DNA of 64,000 nucleotides, from the NCBI RefSeq assembly GCF_001753245.1, contig NZ_CP017415.1:2908040-2972039 (forward strand). Reading direction: 5' to 3'. This DNA comes from Acidihalobacter yilgarnensis (GTDB taxonomy: Bacteria > Pseudomonadota > Gammaproteobacteria > DSM-5130 > Acidihalobacteraceae). Numbering within the stretch: position 1 is the first letter of the stretch; each line of letters opens with the position of its first letter. Below the pieces are notes generated by a model. The model was given only the letters and a program-made list of their open reading frames with translations. It ran no database searches and was not told the DNA's origin. Of the stretch, positions 35,151 through 52,304 are shown in pieces. The translations under genes were made by a program, and so were the position numbers.

Positions 35151-36452
35151 TCAACTGCCATACGGCGACCAGGCCGGCTGACTGACATACTCGGGGCCGC
35201 TCAACCGCTGGCGTACACGCCCATCGACACTCACGACACCCAATACTTTTTTACCACCCTCGACGGTACTGAATATGACCATCGCACCATTTGGCGAGAA
35301 GCTAGGGGCATCGTCGAGGGGGCCTCGGGTCAGCACCTGCATCTGTCCAGTACCCAAATTCATAATCGCGATCTGGAAGGCGCCACCTGCCTGATGCACA
35401 AACGCAATTTTTTTGCCGTCTGGCGATACGGTAGCGCCGGCATTGTAATTACCATCGTAGGTCAGCCGTTGCGCAGGGCCGCCGCCGATCGTCTTGACAT
35501 AAATTTGTGGCGAGCCCCCCCGGTCAGAGGTAAACACAATCGATTTCCCATCCGGCATCCAGGCGGCCCCCGTGTTGATGGAGGCGTCATGCGTCACCTG
35601 AATCAACTGACGGGTCGAGAGATTCATGACATAAATCTCGGCATGACCGTCGTGCGTCAAGGTCATGGCAAGCCGAGTGCCATCGGGTGAAAACGCAGGT
35701 GCGCTATTCAGGCCTGACTGATCGGAGATCATCTCGCGCTTGGCCGTCGTCAAATTCTGCAAATAGAGCTTCGGACGCCCCGAGGCAAAGGATTCGTAAG
35801 CGATGTATTTACCATCCGGTGACCAGGCAGGTGACGAAAGCGGTCTCGGTGATGAATAAACAATCTGAGGGTCATGGCCGTCATAGTCCGCCACCATGAT
35901 TCGAAAACGCGCAATACGCCCATTTTCGACCTTGGTGCTGACATAAGCGATATGGGTATTAAATGCCCCTCGCTGTCCGGTCAACTGCTGATAGACCAAG
36001 TCGCTGATCCGATGTGCCGCCTGCCGCAACTGGCCAATCGTCGCCTGAAAGCGGTAGCCCAGCAATTGCTGATTCTGCAAGGTGTCGAACAGCTGAAAGT
36101 GAACGCTGTACTGGCCACCTCCGAGGGATTCCAGGCCACCGATGACCACGTCACCCACCCCAATTTTACTCCATGCACTGTTGTCGATCTGGCTTGGCTG
36201 GGTAGGTTGCTGAGGCATCTTGGCAGCCGGCACCGGCGCGAACAATCCACTGCGCGCCAGATCGTCGGCGACAATATGCCCGATACGCTGCGGCGGCTGC
36301 CCGGTCCCCGTCCAGGCAAATGGCACGATACCGATCGGCGTCGCCCCTACAGCTCCCTGTGTGATGGTGATGTTGAGCGCAGCCTCAGCCTGCACCCAAG
36401 CAGCTCCTAGGATCAAACACAGAATCACCGCAAATCGTTGCATATGCATCAT
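35151..36452 (-). CDS. tolB: Tol-Pal translocation protein TolB
   Basis: TolB is the periplasmic protein that links TolA/TolR with Pal. A signal peptide ([18 protein letters not shown]) is followed by the D1 domain ([11 protein letters not shown]) and a six-bladed beta-propeller of WD40-like TolB repeats ([73 protein letters not shown]). 433 residues. Several in-frame ATGs occur at the start; the first overlaps the tolA stop. Confidence 0.97.
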
Positions 36453-37483
36453 CCCTGGGGCTTGAAATCGAATATCAATGTGCGCTGAAAAACACTCGGA
36501 TTAGGGGCCAGAGGCAACGGTTCTGAGCGCTTAACGGCGGATTCGACCGAGCGCTTGAACAATTCGTCGCCAGTACAATCGGAAATCTGCAGGCTCAGAA
36601 TATACCCCGCAGGGTCTTGCTGCACCATGACACGGCAACTCTGGCCAGGCTGATAACCCGGCGGAATCAACCAGTTATTTTGTACACGCGATCGAATGGC
36701 TGCCAGCCATGAGTTCTGCAATCGGTGATTCCGAGCGGCGACTGCCGCCATCTGCTGCCGTTTGAGCGCAGCCGCCTCGGCTGCGATCTGCGACTGTAGA
36801 CGGCGTTTCTCCGCAGCTTCCTCTGCCTTTCGCTTCGCCTCCGCAGCAGCCTTCGCCTGAGCGGCGGCCTCAGCCTTTTGTTTCGCCTCCGCAACGGCCT
36901 TTGCCTGGGCGGCGGCCTCGGCTTTGTGCTTAGCCTCCGCAGCGGCCTTGGCTTGGGCGACTACCTCGGCCTTGTGCTTCGCCTCCGCAGCAGCCTTCGC
37001 TCTGGCGGCAGCCTCAGCCTTGTGCTTCGCCTCCGCAGCGGCCTTGGCTTGGGCGGCGGCCTCAGCCTTTTGCTTCGCCTCCGCAGCAGCCTTCGCTCTG
37101 GCGGCAGCCTCAGCCTTGTGCTTCGCCTCCGCAGCGGCCTTGGCTTGGGCGGCGGCCTCAGCCTTTTGCTTCGCCTCCGCAGCAGCCTTCGCTCTGGCGG
37201 CCACCTCGGCCTTTTGTTTCGCCTCCGCAACGGCCTTTGCCTGGGCGGCCACCTCAGCCTTGTGCTTCGCCTCCGCAGCGGCCTTTGCCTTGGCCTCCTC
37301 GGCGGCCTTGGCATGATCGTCTTTCGGAGGCGCCATCAACGCGGCCTGAATCGGCGCGCCGGACGAAACCGGGGTAATTTCGTGATTACGACTGAGACCA
37401 ATGCCGAACAGAATCAGCACCAGTACATTTAGAAGTATCGCTGCTAATAAGGCCCATGGGTGCCTTTGAAGTTCACGCCACAT
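36449..37483 (-). CDS. tolA: Cell envelope integrity protein TolA
   Basis: TolA spans the periplasm from an inner-membrane anchor to TolB/Pal. An N-terminal helix ([19 protein letters not shown]) is followed by a long alpha-helical domain made of ten near-identical 16-residue repeats, and a C-terminal domain III with [20 protein letters not shown] and [23 protein letters not shown]. 344 residues. tolR lies 2 nt upstream and tolB overlaps downstream. Confidence 0.94.
36809..37288 (-). repeat. Ten tandem 48-bp repeats inside tolA
   Basis: Residues 66-225 of TolA are ten copies of AKAAAEAK(H/Q)KAEAAA(R/Q), encoded by 48-bp units that are highly alike at the DNA level in the central copies. The unit is a multiple of three, so recombination would change the length of the periplasmic helix without breaking the frame. 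Confidence 0.92.
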
Positions 37484-37949: not shown

Positions 37950-38627
37950 TCAGTTCATGACCAACTGGCGCTGCAGCAGCGCCAGGAACTCATCCTGAAA
38001 ATTGTCATAGCGCGTCATCAAACGCTCCAGTTCGTCAGCGAAGCGATTGTACGCAACAACCGCGGGAATCGCCGCGAAAAGTCCCATGGCCGTGGCAATC
38101 AAAGCCTCGGCAATGCCTGGCGCGACCATTGCCAGTGAAGCCTGCTGTACATTACCCAACGCCATGAACGCATGCATGATGCCCCATACCGTGCCGAATA
38201 GACCAACATAGGGACTGACCGATCCGACCGTGGCCAGGAAGCTTAACCACCGACCGAGCTCATCTTCCTCGCGCGAGGAAGCAACTCGCATGGAACGCTG
38301 CGCGGCGTCGATGACGAAATTCGGCACAGTCTCCTGATTCGGCCGCTGCAACCGCAGATATTCGCGGAAACCTGCGGCGAAGATACCCTCAAGCCCTCCA
38401 CGCTGCGTCTGCGCCCGGACCCCTTCGTACAGCTGAGATAGATTCGCACCCGACCAAAAACGATCCTCGAAAACCACCGCCTGACGACGCGCGCGCTTGA
38501 GCATGCGCCATTTCACGAAGATCATCGCCCAGGACAACACCGATGCGATTAGCAGCAGCAACAGCACCAGCTGGGCGAGTACGCTGGAATTCATCACCAG
38601 ATCGTAGAAGGTGGGATCAACTGACAC
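37950..38627 (-). CDS. tolQ: Tol-Pal system protein TolQ
   Basis: TolQ forms the ExbB-like proton channel. Three membrane segments occur (about 13-35, 130-152, 165-190), with the pore motif VGLFGTVWGIMHAF and GIAEALIATAMGLFAAIPAVVAYNR. I start at GTG 38627 because GGAGG lies about 9 nt upstream and the protein then begins as TolQ usually does; ATG 38711 would add 28 unrelated residues. The start overlaps the ybgC stop by 11 nt. Confidence 0.95.
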   Translation of the reverse strand: MSVDPTFYDLVMNSSVLAQLVLLLLLIASVLSWAMIFVKWRMLKRARRQAVVFEDRFWSGANLSQLYEGVRAQTQRGGLEGIFAAGFREYLRLQRPNQETVPNFVIDAAQRSMRVASSREEDELGRWLSFLATVGSVSPYVGLFGTVWGIMHAFMALGNVQQASLAMVAPGIAEALIATAMGLFAAIPAVVAYNRFADELERLMTRYDNFQDEFLALLQRQLVMN

Positions 38628-39036
38628 GAACGACGGCCTCCAATATATTTTCCGGGAATGCGACGGGACTGAACGAAGCTGCATCGAGACAAGCAAGCTT
38701 GACGCTACCACACGTCAGCAGCTGCGCGTTACCCGATTGAGCATTGCGGCGGATCTCGTGCGCGATCACAACGCTGGCTGGCCTGATCCGACTGACGGAG
38801 GCGGTCACCTCAAGCGCATCATTGAATCGTGCTGGATAACGGTAATCAACACTAACTGCACGTACGGCAAAAACCACGCCGGGGTCACGCATCAAGCTAT
38901 CCTGCTCGAATCCCAAGCTTCTCAACCACTCGGTACGCGCTCTTTCCATGAACTTGAGGTAGTTCGCGTAGTAAACAACGCCTGCCGTGTCCGTGTCCTC
39001 GTAGTAGACGCGTACCGGCCAGGAAAACACTTCCAT
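38617..39036 (-). CDS. ybgC: Acyl-CoA thioesterase YbgC
   Basis: YbgC is a hotdog-fold thioesterase that heads the tol-pal operon. The family signature VYYEDTDTAGVVYYANYLKFMERARTEWLR carries the catalytic aspartate in DTAGVVYYANYL. I start at ATG 39036 with CAGGAG about 8 nt upstream (139 residues); 21 further upstream codons lack similarity. The 255 nt between it and the lipoprotein gene must contain the tol-pal promoter, which I could not place with confidence. Confidence 0.94.
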   Translation of the reverse strand: MEVFSWPVRVYYEDTDTAGVVYYANYLKFMERARTEWLRSLGFEQDSLMRDPGVVFAVRAVSVDYRYPARFNDALEVTASVSRIRPASVVIAHEIRRNAQSGNAQLLTCGSVKLACLDAASFSPVAFPENILEAVVRVS

Positions 39037-39181
39037 GATTAACTCCTGAGGCGCTCCTCGCTCGGTAAGGCGGAAGGCAACAGGGGCGTATTCTGTCAAA
39101 TCCGAGAACGTTTCGCAGTTTTTTTGTCGGGCACACCTGCCCGTTCAGCGCTGGCGATTCGAGGAACGGGAAATTAAATAG

Positions 39182-39236
39182 CCGGCGATGTCGTCACAAC
39201 AACCCGAGGGAGAATGTGTTGTGACGTCATCGCCGG
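39182..39236 (-). terminator. Large 19-bp hairpin downstream of the small envelope operon
   Basis: Two 19-nt arms (CCGGCGATGTCGTCACAAC and its mate at 39218-39236) pair except at one central position, around a 17-nt loop. On the minus strand it follows the lipoprotein stop by 55 nt and is followed by a T-rich stretch (CTATTTAATTTCC), so it probably ends that operon. A CGACATCG at 39243-39250 could alternatively pair with the lower arm, giving two exclusive folds. Confidence 0.6.
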
Positions 39237-39290
39237 AAGGAGCGACATCGTAGCCCGCCGATAGAACGGCGAGCGAAACTTTACCGGCGA

Positions 39291-39524
39291 TCAGGGGGCC
39301 GGTGTGCTGGCGGGTGCGTCAGGGGTCTGGGTACCTGATTCAGGCATCGTCGCAGCAGGTGCCGAAGGCGTCATGGTGGCCGCAGAAGGTGCCGCTGCGG
39401 TCGGCGCGGAGCCCGTTGAGTCCGAGCTATGCGGGGCGCTCGACTCCTTCTTCCCGCAGCCGGCCAACAGGCCAGCGCCGAGCACGACAGCAATCGCGGC
39501 GATCTTCAGCTGATGCTTATTCAT
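39291..39524 (-). CDS. Small Ser/Ala/Pro-rich lipoprotein
   Basis: A 77-residue protein with a clear lipoprotein signal: MNKHQLKIAAIAVVLGAGLLAGC, then KKE and a disordered tail made almost entirely of Ser, Ala, Pro and Thr. GAGGG lies about 7 nt before ATG 39524; the longer open frame upstream overlaps the preceding small gene and is not coding. It belongs to no family I recognise. It is second in a two-gene unit preceded by a sigma-54-type promoter and GlrR-like sites, between glrR and tol-pal. Confidence 0.85.
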   Translation of the reverse strand: MNKHQLKIAAIAVVLGAGLLAGCGKKESSAPHSSDSTGSAPTAAAPSAATMTPSAPAATMPESGTQTPDAPASTPAP

Positions 39525-39574
39525 ACAAACCCTCATCACAGTTGTGGCGAAAACCGCGCTGACCCACTTGCAGC

Positions 39575-39727
39575 TCAACGCGTCGGATCGAATATCGTCC
39601 CCTGAGGCTTGGCTACATGTGCCGCACCGTGGGGATGCCCGGATCCCGTCGCCAACGATCCCAGCAATGCAAATACGGGACCCGTCGTCAGCATTGCGAA
39701 TATGGCAATGAACACACCTTTCTTCAT
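39575..39727 (-). CDS. Exported 50-residue peptide
   Basis: ATG 39727 has GGGAG 6 nt upstream and opens 50 codons ending at TGA 39575. The product begins MKKGVFIAIFAMLTTGPVFA, a classic signal peptide or membrane helix, followed by about 30 residues containing a GHPHGAAH histidine cluster and ending IFDPTR. No family recognised. It lies 50 nt upstream of the small lipoprotein gene and about 40 nt downstream of the predicted sigma-54 start site. Confidence 0.65.
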   Translation of the reverse strand: MKKGVFIAIFAMLTTGPVFALLGSLATGSGHPHGAAHVAKPQGTIFDPTR

Positions 39728-39777
39728 TCACGCTCCCGACCGGGCAGGCCGTATTCGCCCGTTCCTAAGCTCTGTGT

Positions 39778-39793
39778 ATCAATTCGCGTGCCA
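39778..39793 (-). promoter_or_regulatory. Sigma-54 promoter candidate for the small envelope operon
   Basis: On the minus strand TGGCACGCGAATTGAT has a perfect -24 box (TGGCACG) and a -12 box TTGA instead of TTGC at the right spacing; the E. coli pspA promoter likewise deviates at this base. The start site would be near 39767. A one-mismatch IHF site (AATCAAACACATA, plus strand 39813-39825) lies about 50 bp upstream, between promoter and enhancer sites. Confidence 0.6.
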
Positions 39794-39857
39794 CTTTTAT
39801 TTATCCATTTAAAATCAAACACATAAACAGGAAATATCATGCAAACCCCACATAAAC

Positions 39858-39875
39858 TGTCTGCATATGACGACG
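39858..39875. promoter_or_regulatory. GlrR-like enhancer site (proximal)
   Basis: TGTC-N10-GACG, one base off the TGTC-N10-GACA pattern described for enterobacterial GlrR. It is centred about 100 bp upstream of the predicted sigma-54 start and 65 bp (about six helical turns) from the perfect distal site. Confidence 0.5.
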
Positions 39876-39919
39876 CCGAATACGACGCGCAGACTAAATG
39901 ACTGAAAGCAAAGGAGTTT

Positions 39920-39943
39920 GACTGTCGCCGAATGGCGACAGTC
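39920..39943. promoter_or_regulatory. GlrR-like enhancer site (distal) that is also a hairpin at the glrR stop
   Basis: GACTGTCGCC-GAAT-GGCGACAGTC is a perfect 10-bp palindrome starting directly after the glrR stop codon. It contains TGTC-N10-GACA (39923-39940), an exact match to the enterobacterial GlrR operator, centred about 165 bp upstream of the predicted start. As RNA it could also form a terminator stem for glrR, but no T run follows. Confidence 0.6.
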
Positions 39944-41305
39944 TTAGGTGCGCTTGAACAACGCAGGGTCAATATGATGGCGATTCAACAACTTGTAGAA
40001 TTCAGTACGGTTCCGCTTGGCGAGTTTTGCGGCTGCCGTCACGTTCCCGTCGGTTAGCGTGAGGATGCGTGTGATGTATTCCCGCTCTGCCTGTTCACGC
40101 GTCTCCACGAGTGACGGCATCTCTGCAGGTCCTTCATTCAGGGCCTTCTCTACCTGACTGGCCGGAATCAGGGGCGTGGTGGTCAGCGCAATCGTGCGCT
40201 CTACCACGTTATGAAGCTGGCGCACATTGCCGGGCCAGTCGTACGCTACCAGTCGCCCCATCGCGTCCGGGGAAAAGCCCTTGACCTCCTGTGGCGCACG
40301 ATCGGCGGCAGCGGCAAGAAAGTGCGCCGCCAGCAAGGGTATGTCTTCACGTCGTTCGGCAAGCGTCGGCAGACTCAGCGTGACCACATTGAGGCGGTAA
40401 TACAGATCCTCGCGAAAGCGGCCCTCCCGCACTGCAACATCAAGATCGCGGTGCGTGGCAGAGACGACGCGCACATCCACCGCAACGGTCGACACTGACC
40501 CCACTGGCCTGACGGCTCGTTCCTGAAGTGCGCGCAGCAACTTGGCTTGCGCGGACAAAGGCATGTCGCCGATCTCATCCAGAAATAAGGTGCCCCCACG
40601 CGCCGCCTGAAACAGACCAGGGTGATCGTACGCTGCGCCGGTAAAGGCACCTTTGCGGTGTCCAAAGAGCTCCGATTCGATGAGATTTTCCGGGATAGCG
40701 CTACAGTTGACTGCCACGAAGGGGCCTTCGTGGCGACGACTGACGCGGTGAATGGCGTGCGCCAGCAGCTCCTTGCCAGTACCACTCTCGCCTCGAATCA
40801 GAATGCTCGCATCCGCACGAGCGGCCAGCTTTGCCTCCGCCAGAACGGCTTGCATCTCGGGACTGCGCGTGATGATCCCCGCGCTCCAGGCCGCCTCGAC
40901 CTCGGTTTCCTCGGGGAACCCTCCACCGAGCTGAACCGCAGAGTCGATCTGAATCTGCAACTCACGATGATTGAAGGGCTTGGTGAGAAACCCGAATACA
41001 CCGCGTCGTGTCGCCGCTACGGCATCCGGGATGTTGCCGTGTGCCGTCAAAATGATGACCGGCAAGCCCGTGTAGGCTCGCGCAATGGCGTCGAACAGAC
41101 TCATCCCGTCCATCCCGTCCATACGCAGATCCGTAATCACCACCTGCGGCCGAAAAACCGGCAACTTGGATAACGCCTCGGCCCCACTCTGCGCGGTCTC
41201 CACGTCGTAACCGGCGACGTTGAGACGAAGTGAGAGCACGTGTAGTAAATCCGGCTCGTCGTCCACCAACAAAACGCGCGTCTTAATTGAGGTTTTGTAA
41301 CTCAC
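39944..41305 (-). CDS. glrR: Sigma-54-dependent response regulator GlrR (QseF)
   Basis: An NtrC-family activator: receiver domain with phosphorylatable Asp59 in VVITDLRMDG, AAA+ domain with Walker A GESGTGKE and an intact GAFTGA loop for sigma-54 contact, and a C-terminal Fis-type HTH (GNVTAAAKLAKRNRTEFYKLL). 453 residues. The gene order glrK-glrG-glrR identifies the GlrKR/QseEF system, which in enterobacteria controls the glmY small RNA and rpoE as an envelope signal. It overlaps the glrG-like gene by 23 nt; no glnB follows here. Confidence 0.93.
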   Translation of the reverse strand: MSYKTSIKTRVLLVDDEPDLLHVLSLRLNVAGYDVETAQSGAEALSKLPVFRPQVVITDLRMDGMDGMSLFDAIARAYTGLPVIILTAHGNIPDAVAATRRGVFGFLTKPFNHRELQIQIDSAVQLGGGFPEETEVEAAWSAGIITRSPEMQAVLAEAKLAARADASILIRGESGTGKELLAHAIHRVSRRHEGPFVAVNCSAIPENLIESELFGHRKGAFTGAAYDHPGLFQAARGGTLFLDEIGDMPLSAQAKLLRALQERAVRPVGSVSTVAVDVRVVSATHRDLDVAVREGRFREDLYYRLNVVTLSLPTLAERREDIPLLAAHFLAAAADRAPQEVKGFSPDAMGRLVAYDWPGNVRQLHNVVERTIALTTTPLIPASQVEKALNEGPAEMPSLVETREQAEREYITRILTLTDGNVTAAAKLAKRNRTEFYKLLNRHHIDPALFKRT

Positions 41306-41858
41306 GATCCTTCACCTGGTTGAGCTGCGTTTCGATGCGGGTCAACGCCTTGAGCTTCTGGCGCAGCGTTTCTGCCTCCTGATTCGAGGCCGCGAGCGCC
41401 TTCTCCGTTGCCTGCCGTTGCTGTGTGAGCTGGCGCAGGATCATAGCCAGACCTCGATAAGGCGAATTTGCCTTGATCGTCATCGAACGGAGTAGACCCA
41501 AAGACCCATCTGGAGAGAGACAATCCGGAATGACCGTCGCCAGCATAGCCAATGTCATCCGCGAGTAGTCGCTTGGATAGGCGGCAAAGTGAGCCTTCGC
41601 CTGCTCACAAGCGGTTTGCTGTCGATCCAAGGGCAATCCGACCACTTCACCCGCGTAGTTCAACAGCGCCTTGATGCCCGCGGACGGCGTAGGTAACGGA
41701 GGTGGAGGCGGAATGTGTTTGGCTTGAACTGGCGGCTGTATTACCGGAGGTCGTGTAGGCGGCTGGCGGAGAAACGCCGGTATATGCGCACAGCCGGAAA
41801 GCGACAGGAACAGCAGGCTCGCCCACAGTCGCCAACGCCATGAGTGGTCGACATTCAT
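41283..41858 (-). CDS. QseG (GlrG/YfhG)-like outer-membrane lipoprotein
   Basis: A lipoprotein signal (LWASLLFLSLSGC) precedes a proline-rich segment with several PPPPP stretches, then a helical region including QLTQQRQATEKALAASNQEAETLRQKLKAL at the C terminus. In enterobacteria QseG is an outer-membrane lipoprotein that modulates the sensor kinase QseE/GlrK. Position between kinase and regulator, overlapping both by a few nucleotides, supports the call; sequence similarity is weak. Confidence 0.82.
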   Translation of the reverse strand: MNVDHSWRWRLWASLLFLSLSGCAHIPAFLRQPPTRPPVIQPPVQAKHIPPPPPLPTPSAGIKALLNYAGEVVGLPLDRQQTACEQAKAHFAAYPSDYSRMTLAMLATVIPDCLSPDGSLGLLRSMTIKANSPYRGLAMILRQLTQQRQATEKALAASNQEAETLRQKLKALTRIETQLNQVKDRELQNLN

Positions 41859-43335
41859 TCCGCACCTTCCTCTCGTAAATCCGGCGGCAACTCGACCACA
41901 AACACGGCACCCTCCCCCTCACGCGGCACATCGAGACTCACGCGGCCACGGTGAGCCTGTACGTACTCCTGCACAATGGCAAGACCCAAGCCAGACCCTC
42001 TCACCAAACCTTCTTGTGGCGGCTTACCGCGATAAAAAGGTTCGAATAGATGCGCTCGATCTTCGCCGGCGATGCCCGGCCCCTCATCCACAAGACGCAA
42101 TACCACCCAGCCTTCGGCCAGTGATACGGCAACATGCAAGGTCGACCCTCGAGGTGCGTATTTGATGGCATTGGACAACAGATTGTCGACTACCTGGCGC
42201 AATTTGGCCTCGTCTCCCCACATTGCCGCACGCGTCAAGTGGCGATCCACATGCAACCCCCGTCCCGCAATCGCAGGGGTCAACGACTTGATCGACTGGT
42301 CGATCAATTGCGATAAATCGAGCATTTTCAGGTTCAGGCTCGCGAACTGACCTTGCAGGCGACTGTACTGTAAGAGCTGTTCGATTCTTTCCTGCAGCTG
42401 CCGCCCGCTGGCTGCCAGTATGCGCATCAGGCTCGCCTGTTCCGCATTGAGCATACCCAGCACCTGCTCATCGAGTAGCGACACACCCTCCAGCAGGGTT
42501 GTCAGCGGTGTCTTGAGGTCGTGCGACATATCGCGCAGGAAGCGTTGCTTACCGGTATCAAGCTCTTGCAGTCGTCGACGCGTCCAATCCAGGCGCTCGC
42601 CCAGATATTTGATATCACGCGGTCCACTCACTGTGACGGGCTGATCGAATCGACCATCGCCCAAGTGGTGGATGGCATGGTCGATCTGCCGAACTGGACG
42701 GAGAATCAGACGACTGAGCACATAGGCAAGTGCGAAGGTCAGCGGCACCAACAATGCTGCACCCCAGACCAGAAGCTCCTGTAGCCAGCTGGCATGCGTA
42801 CGCAGCGCATCCACGCGACGACTCACCATGCGACTACTGTCGATCCAGAGCTGATGCGCCTCCCGGCTCAAACGGTCGAAACCACCGAGTCCAACCTGAA
42901 CGGCTGGCTTACTTTGCATCCCTTGCAAAAAACGATTGGCCAGCTGGCTCTCGCCGACCGACAGTCGCGCGATCTGCGACTGCAGCCCCCCCCCAGAGGT
43001 AGCGCCATCAGGCCGTGCACGGTATGGTCGAATTGCTGATGACTGGAACGGAACACCTGCAACAAGCCGGGATCGCCCACAACCAGATATTGCCGGGCAC
43101 TACGCTCCATGGTCACCAGCTCCTCCATTAGCAGCAGGCTCCCCTGGGTAAGTTGTACCGCTTCATACACAATGTTCTCGCTCTGCCCGGCAATGCGATT
43201 GACCGCATAGGCCGCGCCCAACACCACCAGCAACAAGGGCAGCACCACGAGCGTGAAGCTCAGCAATACCAGTCCTCCCAACGAGTGCGGCGGCCAACGG
43301 CGCCAGCCGGTGCCGGAAACCCATTTAATTTTCAT
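41855..43335 (-). pseudogene. glrK: Sensor kinase GlrK (QseE), one frameshift at a poly-G tract
   Basis: The N-terminal part (42995-43335) has a membrane helix (LVLLSFTLVVLPLLLVVLGAAYAV) and sensor segment; the second part, in another frame, has the second helix (LLVWGAALLVPLTFALAYVLSRLI), HAMP, the phosphoacceptor MSHDLKTPLTTLLEGV, and the ATPase motifs DNLLSNAIKYAPRGS and GSGLGLAIVQEYVQAH. Restoring one G in the nine-G tract at 42986-42994 joins them into about 493 residues. All catalytic motifs are intact, so the break may be a sequencing error or a slippage switch. Confidence 0.85.
42986..42994 (-). repeat. Nine-base G tract in glrK
   Basis: Nine consecutive C on the plus strand (G on the coding strand) lie between the sensor segment and the second helix of glrK, exactly where the frame breaks. 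Ten bases (or seven) would restore the frame. Confidence 0.9.
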
Positions 43336-51787: not shown

Positions 51788-51962
51788 AAACAATCCTTAT
51801 TAAATGTGCGACAGCGCGGCGGCTTGTCGTTAGCAGACGACAGCTTGGCGCCATTCCAACAGAAAAGATAATTAATCAAACCATTTACCGCACCTGCACG
51901 CGGCCCTAATATCCCCGTCGCCCCTCAGTTACGAGGGAAGTGTATCTTCAGGAGACAACTCG

Positions 51963-52304
51963 ATGAAAAAGTACGTTATTGCTCTGTCCGTGCTGGGCGC
52001 ACTGACCCTCAGTCTCCCGGCCATGGCCGACAACGCCATGCCCGCTGCGCCGGCACATGAGGCCGCCAAGCCGATGATGCCCACCAAGCCCGCCCACAAG
52101 CCGGCCATGAAGCATGTCATGCATGCCAGCATGATGGTGAAGGAAGCCCAGGAAGCCCTGAACAAGCATGGCGCCATGCTCAAGGCCGACGGCATGATGG
52201 GTCCGAAAACCCATGCCGCGATCCGCAGCTTCCAGAAGGCCAATGGCCTGAAGGCGACCGGACACCTGAGCAAAATGACGATGGAAAAGCTCGAAGCCAA
52301 GTAA
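51963..52304 (+). CDS. Exported Met/His-rich peptidoglycan-binding-domain protein
   Basis: A signal peptide (VIALSVLGALTLSLPAMA) is followed by about 45 residues rich in Met, His, Pro and Lys (AHEAAKPMMPTKPAHKPAMKHVMHASMM), then a PG_binding_1 domain (KEAQEALNKHGAMLKADGMMGPKTHAAIRSFQKANGLKATG spans residues 60-100). A good ribosome-binding site precedes ATG 51963. The Met/His segment could bind copper or another metal. A strong terminator follows. Confidence 0.88.
   Translation: MKKYVIALSVLGALTLSLPAMADNAMPAAPAHEAAKPMMPTKPAHKPAMKHVMHASMMVKEAQEALNKHGAMLKADGMMGPKTHAAIRSFQKANGLKATGHLSKMTMEKLEAK

Follow-up and report, generated by a model that had tools for sequence, protein, structure and literature searches.

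In enterobacteria, where the function of GlrK/GlrR was worked out, the outputs described in the accessible passages of PMC6075780 are the small RNA GlmY and rpoE, and according to the same passages the sigma-54 promoter of E. coli glmY has TGTN12ACA sites that QseF, together with IHF, binds. Counts of QseE/QseF in other acidophiles have been published (PMC9040811, PMC12194929), although the accessible parts of these two papers do not name the interval considered here, and no report of these loci was found in the accessible text of the open literature searched. We asked what is produced from the short interval that follows glrR in Acidihalobacter yilgarnensis, and whether GlrR governs it. The genome (G000) is a single contig of 3,566,941 bases, and the window, i.e. 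the whole 64-kb stretch of DNA analysed, has a GC content of 59.5%. For comparison we used two congeners (G001 and G002), two other members of the same family (G003 and G004) and the wider sets described below.

The order on the minus strand is glrK, a lipoprotein gene in the qseG position, glrR, the small-operon interval, ybgC and tol-pal, the genes flanking the interval being the following:

41855..43335, minus strand: glrK-like sensor kinase, with an interrupted frame (HAMP, HisKA and HATPase_c)
41283..41858, minus strand: lipoprotein of 191 aa in the qseG/yfhG position, between kinase and regulator, with a LSGCAH lipobox
39944..41305, minus strand: glrR-like sigma-54 response regulator of 453 aa, from Pfam and NCBIfam profile matches
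38617..39036, minus strand: ybgC, first gene of the tol-pal cluster (4HBT thioesterase families)

The regulator has the receiver, sigma-54 AAA+ and Fis-type HTH domains of GlrR (QseF): Response_reg, Sigma54_activat and the AAA lid score above the Pfam cut-offs, and HTH_8 slightly below (20.8 bits, cut-off 22). We call it GlrR-like because its best NCBIfam model is GlrR (PRK15115, 601 bits) at a score below the equivalog cut-off of 763 bits, so that the name rests on synteny and best match. The glrK - qseG lipoprotein - glrR order is also present, with qseG recognised by position and lipobox only, since no Pfam family matched the 191-aa protein above cut-off. The glrK-like frame is split into two ORFs near a run of nine G (42986-42994, minus strand), and is one intact ORF in G001, G002 and G004; the split may reflect an error in the assembly, a genuine interruption or a tract that varies. 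A search for GlrR in G003 gave no match at a threshold of 1e-120. Farther along the tol-pal side, the window holds at 36449-37483 a TolA-like protein that has a long array of Ala/Lys/Glu-rich repeats, nearly identical to one another, and a TonB_2 C-terminus.

Between glrR and ybgC we identified, in the order of reading, the following elements:

39923..39940, minus strand: UAS1, TGTCGCCATTCGGCGACA; the same motif lies after glrR in G001, G002 and a further genome (G030), and in a paralogous cassette of G000
39858..39875, minus strand: UAS2, CGTC-N10-GACA, with one mismatch, 65 bp from UAS1
39813..39825, minus strand: IHF-like site, TATGTGTTTGATT, with one mismatch, at -31 from the sigma-54 box
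39778..39794, minus strand: sigma-54 -24/-12 box, GTGGCACG CGAA TTGAT, kept in G001, G002 and the paralogue, and as a variant in G004
39575..39727, minus strand: ORF of 50 aa with a signal-peptide-like start, weakly conserved
39291..39524, minus strand: lipoprotein of 77 aa, with a LLAGC-GKKES lipobox and a low-complexity tail with MPESGT, present in four copies
39253..39274, minus strand: RNA stem-loop 1, a stem-loop in 5/5 copies folded
39237..39252, minus strand: CU-rich linker running into GUCGCUCCUUCC, mostly unpaired, a candidate seed, 88-94% identical
39182..39236, minus strand: RNA stem-loop 2, whose apex ACAUUCUCCCUCGG is invariant in four copies (covariance model R1)

The preliminary description had named the UAS pair, the IHF site, the box, both ORFs and the hairpin, and all of them were found in their places on the minus strand. 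Taken singly, these motifs prove little. TGTC-N10-GACA occurs twice in the window, with 0.87 expected, and 17/100 shuffles reach two; when as many as two mismatches are allowed, 14 sigma-54 boxes are found where 8.7 are expected, and 2/100 shuffles reach 14, and the operon's own box, whose -12 element is GA where the consensus is GC, belongs to the two-mismatch class. It is the combination of a UAS of the TGTC-N10-GACA type, an IHF site and a -24/-12 box, here with one mismatch each in UAS2 and the IHF site, that counts.

The output had been described as a pair of small proteins, of which only one proved constant. The lipoprotein is 57-76% identical among its four copies, and we regard it as a real gene under purifying selection because dN/dS is 0.16-0.30 with synonymous sites differing at 51-63%. 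It matched no Pfam family above cut-off, and identity with LptM was rejected (15.4 bits, NCBIfam NF047847 cut-off 27.7). The stretch with the 50-aa ORF is missing in G002. Its counterpart in G001 (54 aa, 47% identity, dN/dS 0.18, synonymous sites near-saturated) is probably coding; that in the paralogue has 46 aa, a GTG start, 43% identity and a poorer hydrophobic stretch, with a dN/dS of 0.25 computed at near-saturated synonymous sites. The 50-aa ORF may thus encode a genuine small protein in two of the species, and judging from these alignments it is not a constant part of the system.

A pattern search in G000 returned a second exact GTCGCTCCTTCCGGC, at a locus (L114) where the entire cassette is present in diverged form (67% identity across 965 aligned columns, 12% gaps). 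This copy holds a relic of the glrR 3' end (residues 415-452, 71% identity), UAS1, UAS2 (CGTC-N10-GACA), the box TTGGCACG-N4-TTG (the only exact one in G000 among the matches listed), a lipoprotein of 76 aa and the RNA. It is directly followed by an acyltransferase gene (L114:2682-3488, G000:C1:3302681-3303487) with Autoind_synth and GNAT matches. With a paralogous cassette elsewhere, before an acyltransferase gene, the position beside Tol-Pal, to which the preliminary description had attached meaning, looks incidental.

Where, then, is conservation strongest? In comparison with G001, G002 and the paralogue, in that order and with segment borders one base off those listed above, the window copy is 94/83/83% identical in UAS1, 83/78/67% in UAS2, 65/67/58% from the IHF site to the box, 73/65/71% in the lipoprotein gene, 68/68/68% in stem-loop 1, 94/88/88% in the linker, 100/89/91% in stem-loop 2, with 14 invariant nucleotides at the apex in the four copies, 91/100/91% in the tail beside it and 67/56/27% in the ybgC leader. 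Outside the GlrR sites, linker, tail and stem-loop 2, identity is at most 73%, and spacers reach 0-68% (28-57% between UAS1 and the IHF site). The 19-bp hairpin of the preliminary description is present at 39182-39236, but belongs, with a second stem-loop, to a conserved RNA, which had been overlooked as the most conserved product of the interval.

The 91-nt stretch with the hairpin folds far better than its shuffles (z -5.9, 0/200 as good), and the best fold in 5/5 copies, G004 included, is stem-loop, linker, stem-loop. The linker is unpaired in four of these five best folds, four of its bases being paired in G002, and it is partly paired in part of the ensemble in the paralogue and in G004. 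An alignment of the five sequences, in which G004 was misplaced, was set aside; in that of the four copies, three of the 123 pair cells are non-standard and the others (97.6%) are standard pairs. One base pair has a two-sided compensatory change, the other changes being mainly to G-U, as in stem-loop 1, where changes mostly keep pairing via G-U on the minus strand. Covariation was not above shuffles (120/500 shuffles, four copies), because the RNA varies too little. Scored with covariance model R1, the copies reach 96-115 bits and their opposite strands 18-36 bits (113 and 36 bits for the window copy), and these scores, together with the G-U changes, indicate an RNA read from the minus strand.

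A scan of 274 genomes with model R1, run with stricter filters at which weak matches are lost, found true matches in three genomes of one genus: G000, whose two copies both sit in a complete cassette, and G001 and G002, with one copy each. A wider spread was dropped, since two weaker matches, in G239 and G168, sit, by eye, inside gltB- and kdpB-like genes. Homology to GlmY/GlmZ was also rejected: an Rfam scan of 38900-40100 gave four matches up to E 10, all far below cut-offs and none to GlmY/GlmZ. The same holds for an intrinsic terminator as the main role of the hairpin, with zero terminator-like sites and no U tract. As in small RNAs from 3'UTRs, a conserved unpaired seed lies past the stop codon, with the linker partly paired in G002; the Rho-independent terminator that such RNAs have at the 3' end was not found.

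We hypothesize that the locus is a local output module of GlrK/QseG/GlrR, a sigma-54 operon that encodes a lipoprotein and, at its 3' end, a trans-acting small RNA, and we give this reading a probability of roughly 0.55. Phosphorylated GlrR would bind both TGTC-N10-GACA-type sites, IHF would introduce a bend between UAS2 and the promoter, and transcription by sigma-54 polymerase would start near 39767, a position predicted from the sequence only. The transcript would encode the 77-aa lipoprotein and, in A. yilgarnensis, the 50-aa exported peptide that one congener lacks, and would end in the two-hairpin RNA, with its mostly unpaired GUCGCUCCUUCC linker and its UCUCCCUC loop. This RNA is most likely a small RNA, either released from the mRNA or acting within it, and would base-pair in trans via the CU-rich linker and/or the loop, probably at ribosome-binding sites, an action suggested by the complementarity of both linker and loop to Shine-Dalgarno-like sequence. 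CpxR controls CpxP/CpxQ, and GlrR would couple a lipoprotein to post-transcriptional control as Cpx does with that pair; its output would also include an RNA, as that of enterobacterial GlrR includes GlmY, but a non-homologous one. We infer, as the preliminary description did, that the module may serve as an envelope-stress output.

Target searches gave no convincing target and one lead. In three genomes, sequences complementary to linker and loop provided 20 stretches for inspection, among which there was no conserved ribosome-binding site, and pairing of linker or loop with glmS leaders was no better than shuffles in 3/3 species (in the best case 66/300 shuffles scored as low). The start of the qseG-like gene ranked second of 54 kept window ORFs with the linker (24/500 shuffles as low), but for G001 and G002 a low score came from the loop alone (22/500 and 46/500 shuffles); we take it as a lead only. 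RapZ, the partner expected of a GlmY/GlmZ-type RNA, is represented by RapZ-like_N in 5/5 genomes, a weak test given its presence also in 6/14 control genomes.

Since these searches found no target, another explanation deserves attention, namely that GlrR drives only the lipoprotein, and that the 3' stem-loops protect or end its mRNA, with no function in trans. Hairpins are common at mRNA 3' ends, and the purifying selection on the lipoprotein in all four copies fits this explanation as well. A stem that protects or terminates, however, needs neither a 14-nt apex that is invariant in four copies nor a nearly invariant linker, and there is no terminator-like U tract. The neighbouring genus weighs further against it. 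In G004, the sequence after glrR has two UAS-like sites, each with a single mismatch, an IHF-like site that is perfect, and TTGGCTCG-N4-TTGTT, and a search of the interval with lipoprotein and peptide found no relative of either. Nevertheless, the 16-mer GTCGCTCCCTTCCGGC lies between two hairpins, between this promoter and ybgC; a match to it within one edit occurred in 0/20000 shuffles of the interval and in 0/28 other loci (350 kb). Model R1 does not find the G004 RNA. The stretch is crossed by ORFs of 78, 80 and 98 aa, in which no signal-peptide or lipobox features are visible, and is followed by a 41-aa ORF with a signal-like start, so that a protein product from the 78-98-aa ORFs is possible. 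As the search gave no lipoprotein relative, the linker can be kept where the lipoprotein is not, and this gives the strongest indication that the RNA may have a role of its own. We therefore regard the lipoprotein-only explanation as unlikely, although it is the most serious competitor.

The RNA could instead be a cis-acting leader of the next gene, which would be ybgC-tol in the window and the acyltransferase gene at the second copy. A gene on the same strand does follow in both places, with the ybgC start 146 bp past stem-loop 2 and the acyltransferase ORF close, and the promoter scan called no sigma-70 promoter between the RNA element and ybgC. The genes downstream of the two cassettes are unrelated, however, and the sequence between RNA and gene is as poorly conserved as the ybgC leader values above indicate. 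The TTGACA upstream of ybgC, kept in three congeners, moreover hints at a separate promoter. A leader function seems to us improbable.

The small-RNA and lipoprotein module that we favour depends on GlrR being the activator, and this was addressed by comparison of many loci. GlrR-like loci were collected by protein identity alone (at least 50%), irrespective of the surrounding gene order, giving 43 loci, or 42 after L037 was dropped (less than 250 bp downstream); 51 loci of other sigma-54 response regulators served as controls, or 48 after three were dropped for the same reason. The layout rule required a sigma-54 box preceded by two UAS, each with no more than one mismatch and lying 55-85 bp from the other, all within 500 bp after glrR. 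It was satisfied in 13/42 GlrR-like loci, 0/48 control loci and 1/2000 random 560-mers; the first count is not blind, because the sigma-54 score threshold and the site geometry were set after a first look, while the control count used the identical rule. If the count is extended to promoters on either strand as far as 4.5 kb upstream, at least 20/42 GlrR-like loci have one, a lower bound because the whole-genome loci hold only 1.5 kb of flanks, and again 0/48 controls. An IHF-like site with zero or one mismatch lies 30-32 bp upstream of the box in 13/14 promoters (the 13 and the paralogue; the exception is G030), whereas among random AT-rich stretches of equal length about 16% contain such a site at any position (475/3000).

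The lack of conservation in relatives that would have spoken against the preliminary description was not observed: the layout recurs after glrR in the two congeners, and likewise in another genus of the family, in a different family of the class, in betaproteobacteria and in a Desulfobulbaceae MAG. Another enhancer-binding protein might still use a real promoter, and about a dozen G000 proteins match the AAA region of GlrR. The layout nevertheless keeps to glrR and is absent beside other sigma-54 response regulators, and the half-sites fit the QseF sites given in the accessible passages of PMC6075780, so that such a substitute is, in our estimation, still less probable than a leader. With rpoN found in 5/5 genomes of the family, these comparisons strongly support, at the level of predicted sites, the direct control of the operon by GlrR, IHF and sigma-54 that the preliminary description had proposed. 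That the hairpin is a DNA element, such as a mobile-element end or a protein-binding cruciform, has in its favour the diverged second copy elsewhere in G000 and the general occurrence of stems with strong loops in such elements, but is hardly credible given only two G000 copies by model R1, each with the whole cassette, the same position in three species and several changes to G-U, which pair only as minus-strand RNA.

The products behind this promoter differ between lineages. Small exported-looking BON-domain proteins were found in Herbaspirillum, Chitinimonas, Janthinobacterium, Duganella and Dechloromonas, an EF-hand plus BON protein in a Methylophilaceae MAG and an 82-aa protein, to which no Pfam family was assigned, in G030; no clear small product was seen behind the promoter in the Desulfobulbaceae MAG (L026) and in Rubrivivax (L041). 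In two Neptuniibacter, the promoter lies 2.6-2.9 kb upstream of glrR and precedes genes for EF-hand proteins, in one of the two (L049) only under a looser rule.

In Dechloromonas, Propionivibrio and one MAG (L032, L044 and L048), a GlrR-type double site and a sigma-54 box precede a bactofilin-like gene (called by eye), about 2.3 kb upstream of glrR on the minus strand and reading away from it. A link between GlrR and cell-shape scaffolds is possible on this basis.

Within G000, the extended palindrome TGTCG-N8-CGACA occurs 11 times, against three for the reversed control. Only the two cassettes satisfy the promoter rule, and a genome-wide GlrR regulon was rejected, as the other nine palindromes lack a second site plus box. 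The box score alone is not telling, because two of the eight sites scored (L137 and L139) equal the window box at 12.0 and sit in long open frames.

The ninth of these palindromes is in the window, at 51825-51842 (TGTCGTTAGCAGACGACA), nearly identical in three species, upstream of a gene (51963-52304) for a small, exported-looking product with the peptidoglycan-binding domain PF01471; its promoter is, by eye, sigma-70-like and not sigma-54.

How does the proposed module of lipoprotein and small RNA compare with known systems? With GlrR-GlmY of E. coli, as far as the accessible passages of PMC6075780 describe it, it shares the kind of regulator, the kinase-lipoprotein-regulator order, UAS of the TGTN12ACA type, IHF and a sigma-54 promoter, an output gene that adjoins glrKR, possibly an RNA output, and a homologous pair (GlmY/GlmZ in E. 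coli, the two cassettes in G000). It differs in that the output lies after glrR here and before glrK in E. coli, and in that the transcript encodes a lipoprotein and carries an RNA with neither a GlmY/GlmZ Rfam match nor glmS pairing above shuffles. We thus judge the two-hairpin element to be a candidate GlrR-dependent small RNA that is not homologous to GlmY. GlnZ, from sigma-54-driven glnA, and CpxQ, from cpxP, are mRNA-derived 3'UTR small RNAs according to the accessible text of PMC9731577; they share with the present case a regulator-driven mRNA with a (here candidate) small RNA at its 3' end and a conserved seed, and GlnZ also a sigma-54 promoter, as predicted here. The element described here has no Rho-independent terminator, unlike these RNAs, and the likeness is one of placement after a coding gene. 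The GlrR-linked BON-domain, EF-hand and bactofilin-like genes share the promoter layout near glrR and small exported or envelope-type products, although none of these products is a low-complexity lipoprotein plus an RNA.

A broader reading is offered tentatively: the element may represent a new family of GlrR/sigma-54-dependent small RNAs, a counterpart of GlmY that silences envelope mRNAs at ribosome-binding sites, and the promoter beside glrR may be an ancient slot with lineage-specific outputs. If so, the element would be the founding member of that family, duplicated in G000, and GlrR would end in an RNA also outside enterobacteria, while different lineages would have plugged RNA, lipoprotein, BON, EF-hand or bactofilin-like outputs into the slot. 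The layout beside glrR in many lineages gives a testable reading of GlrR targets as small envelope proteins, and in one genus it precedes an RNA conserved above everything around it. Should this RNA act in trans, one and the same envelope sensor would have acquired, in independent events, two RNAs that are unrelated to each other, and why GlrR needs an RNA output would become an experimental question.
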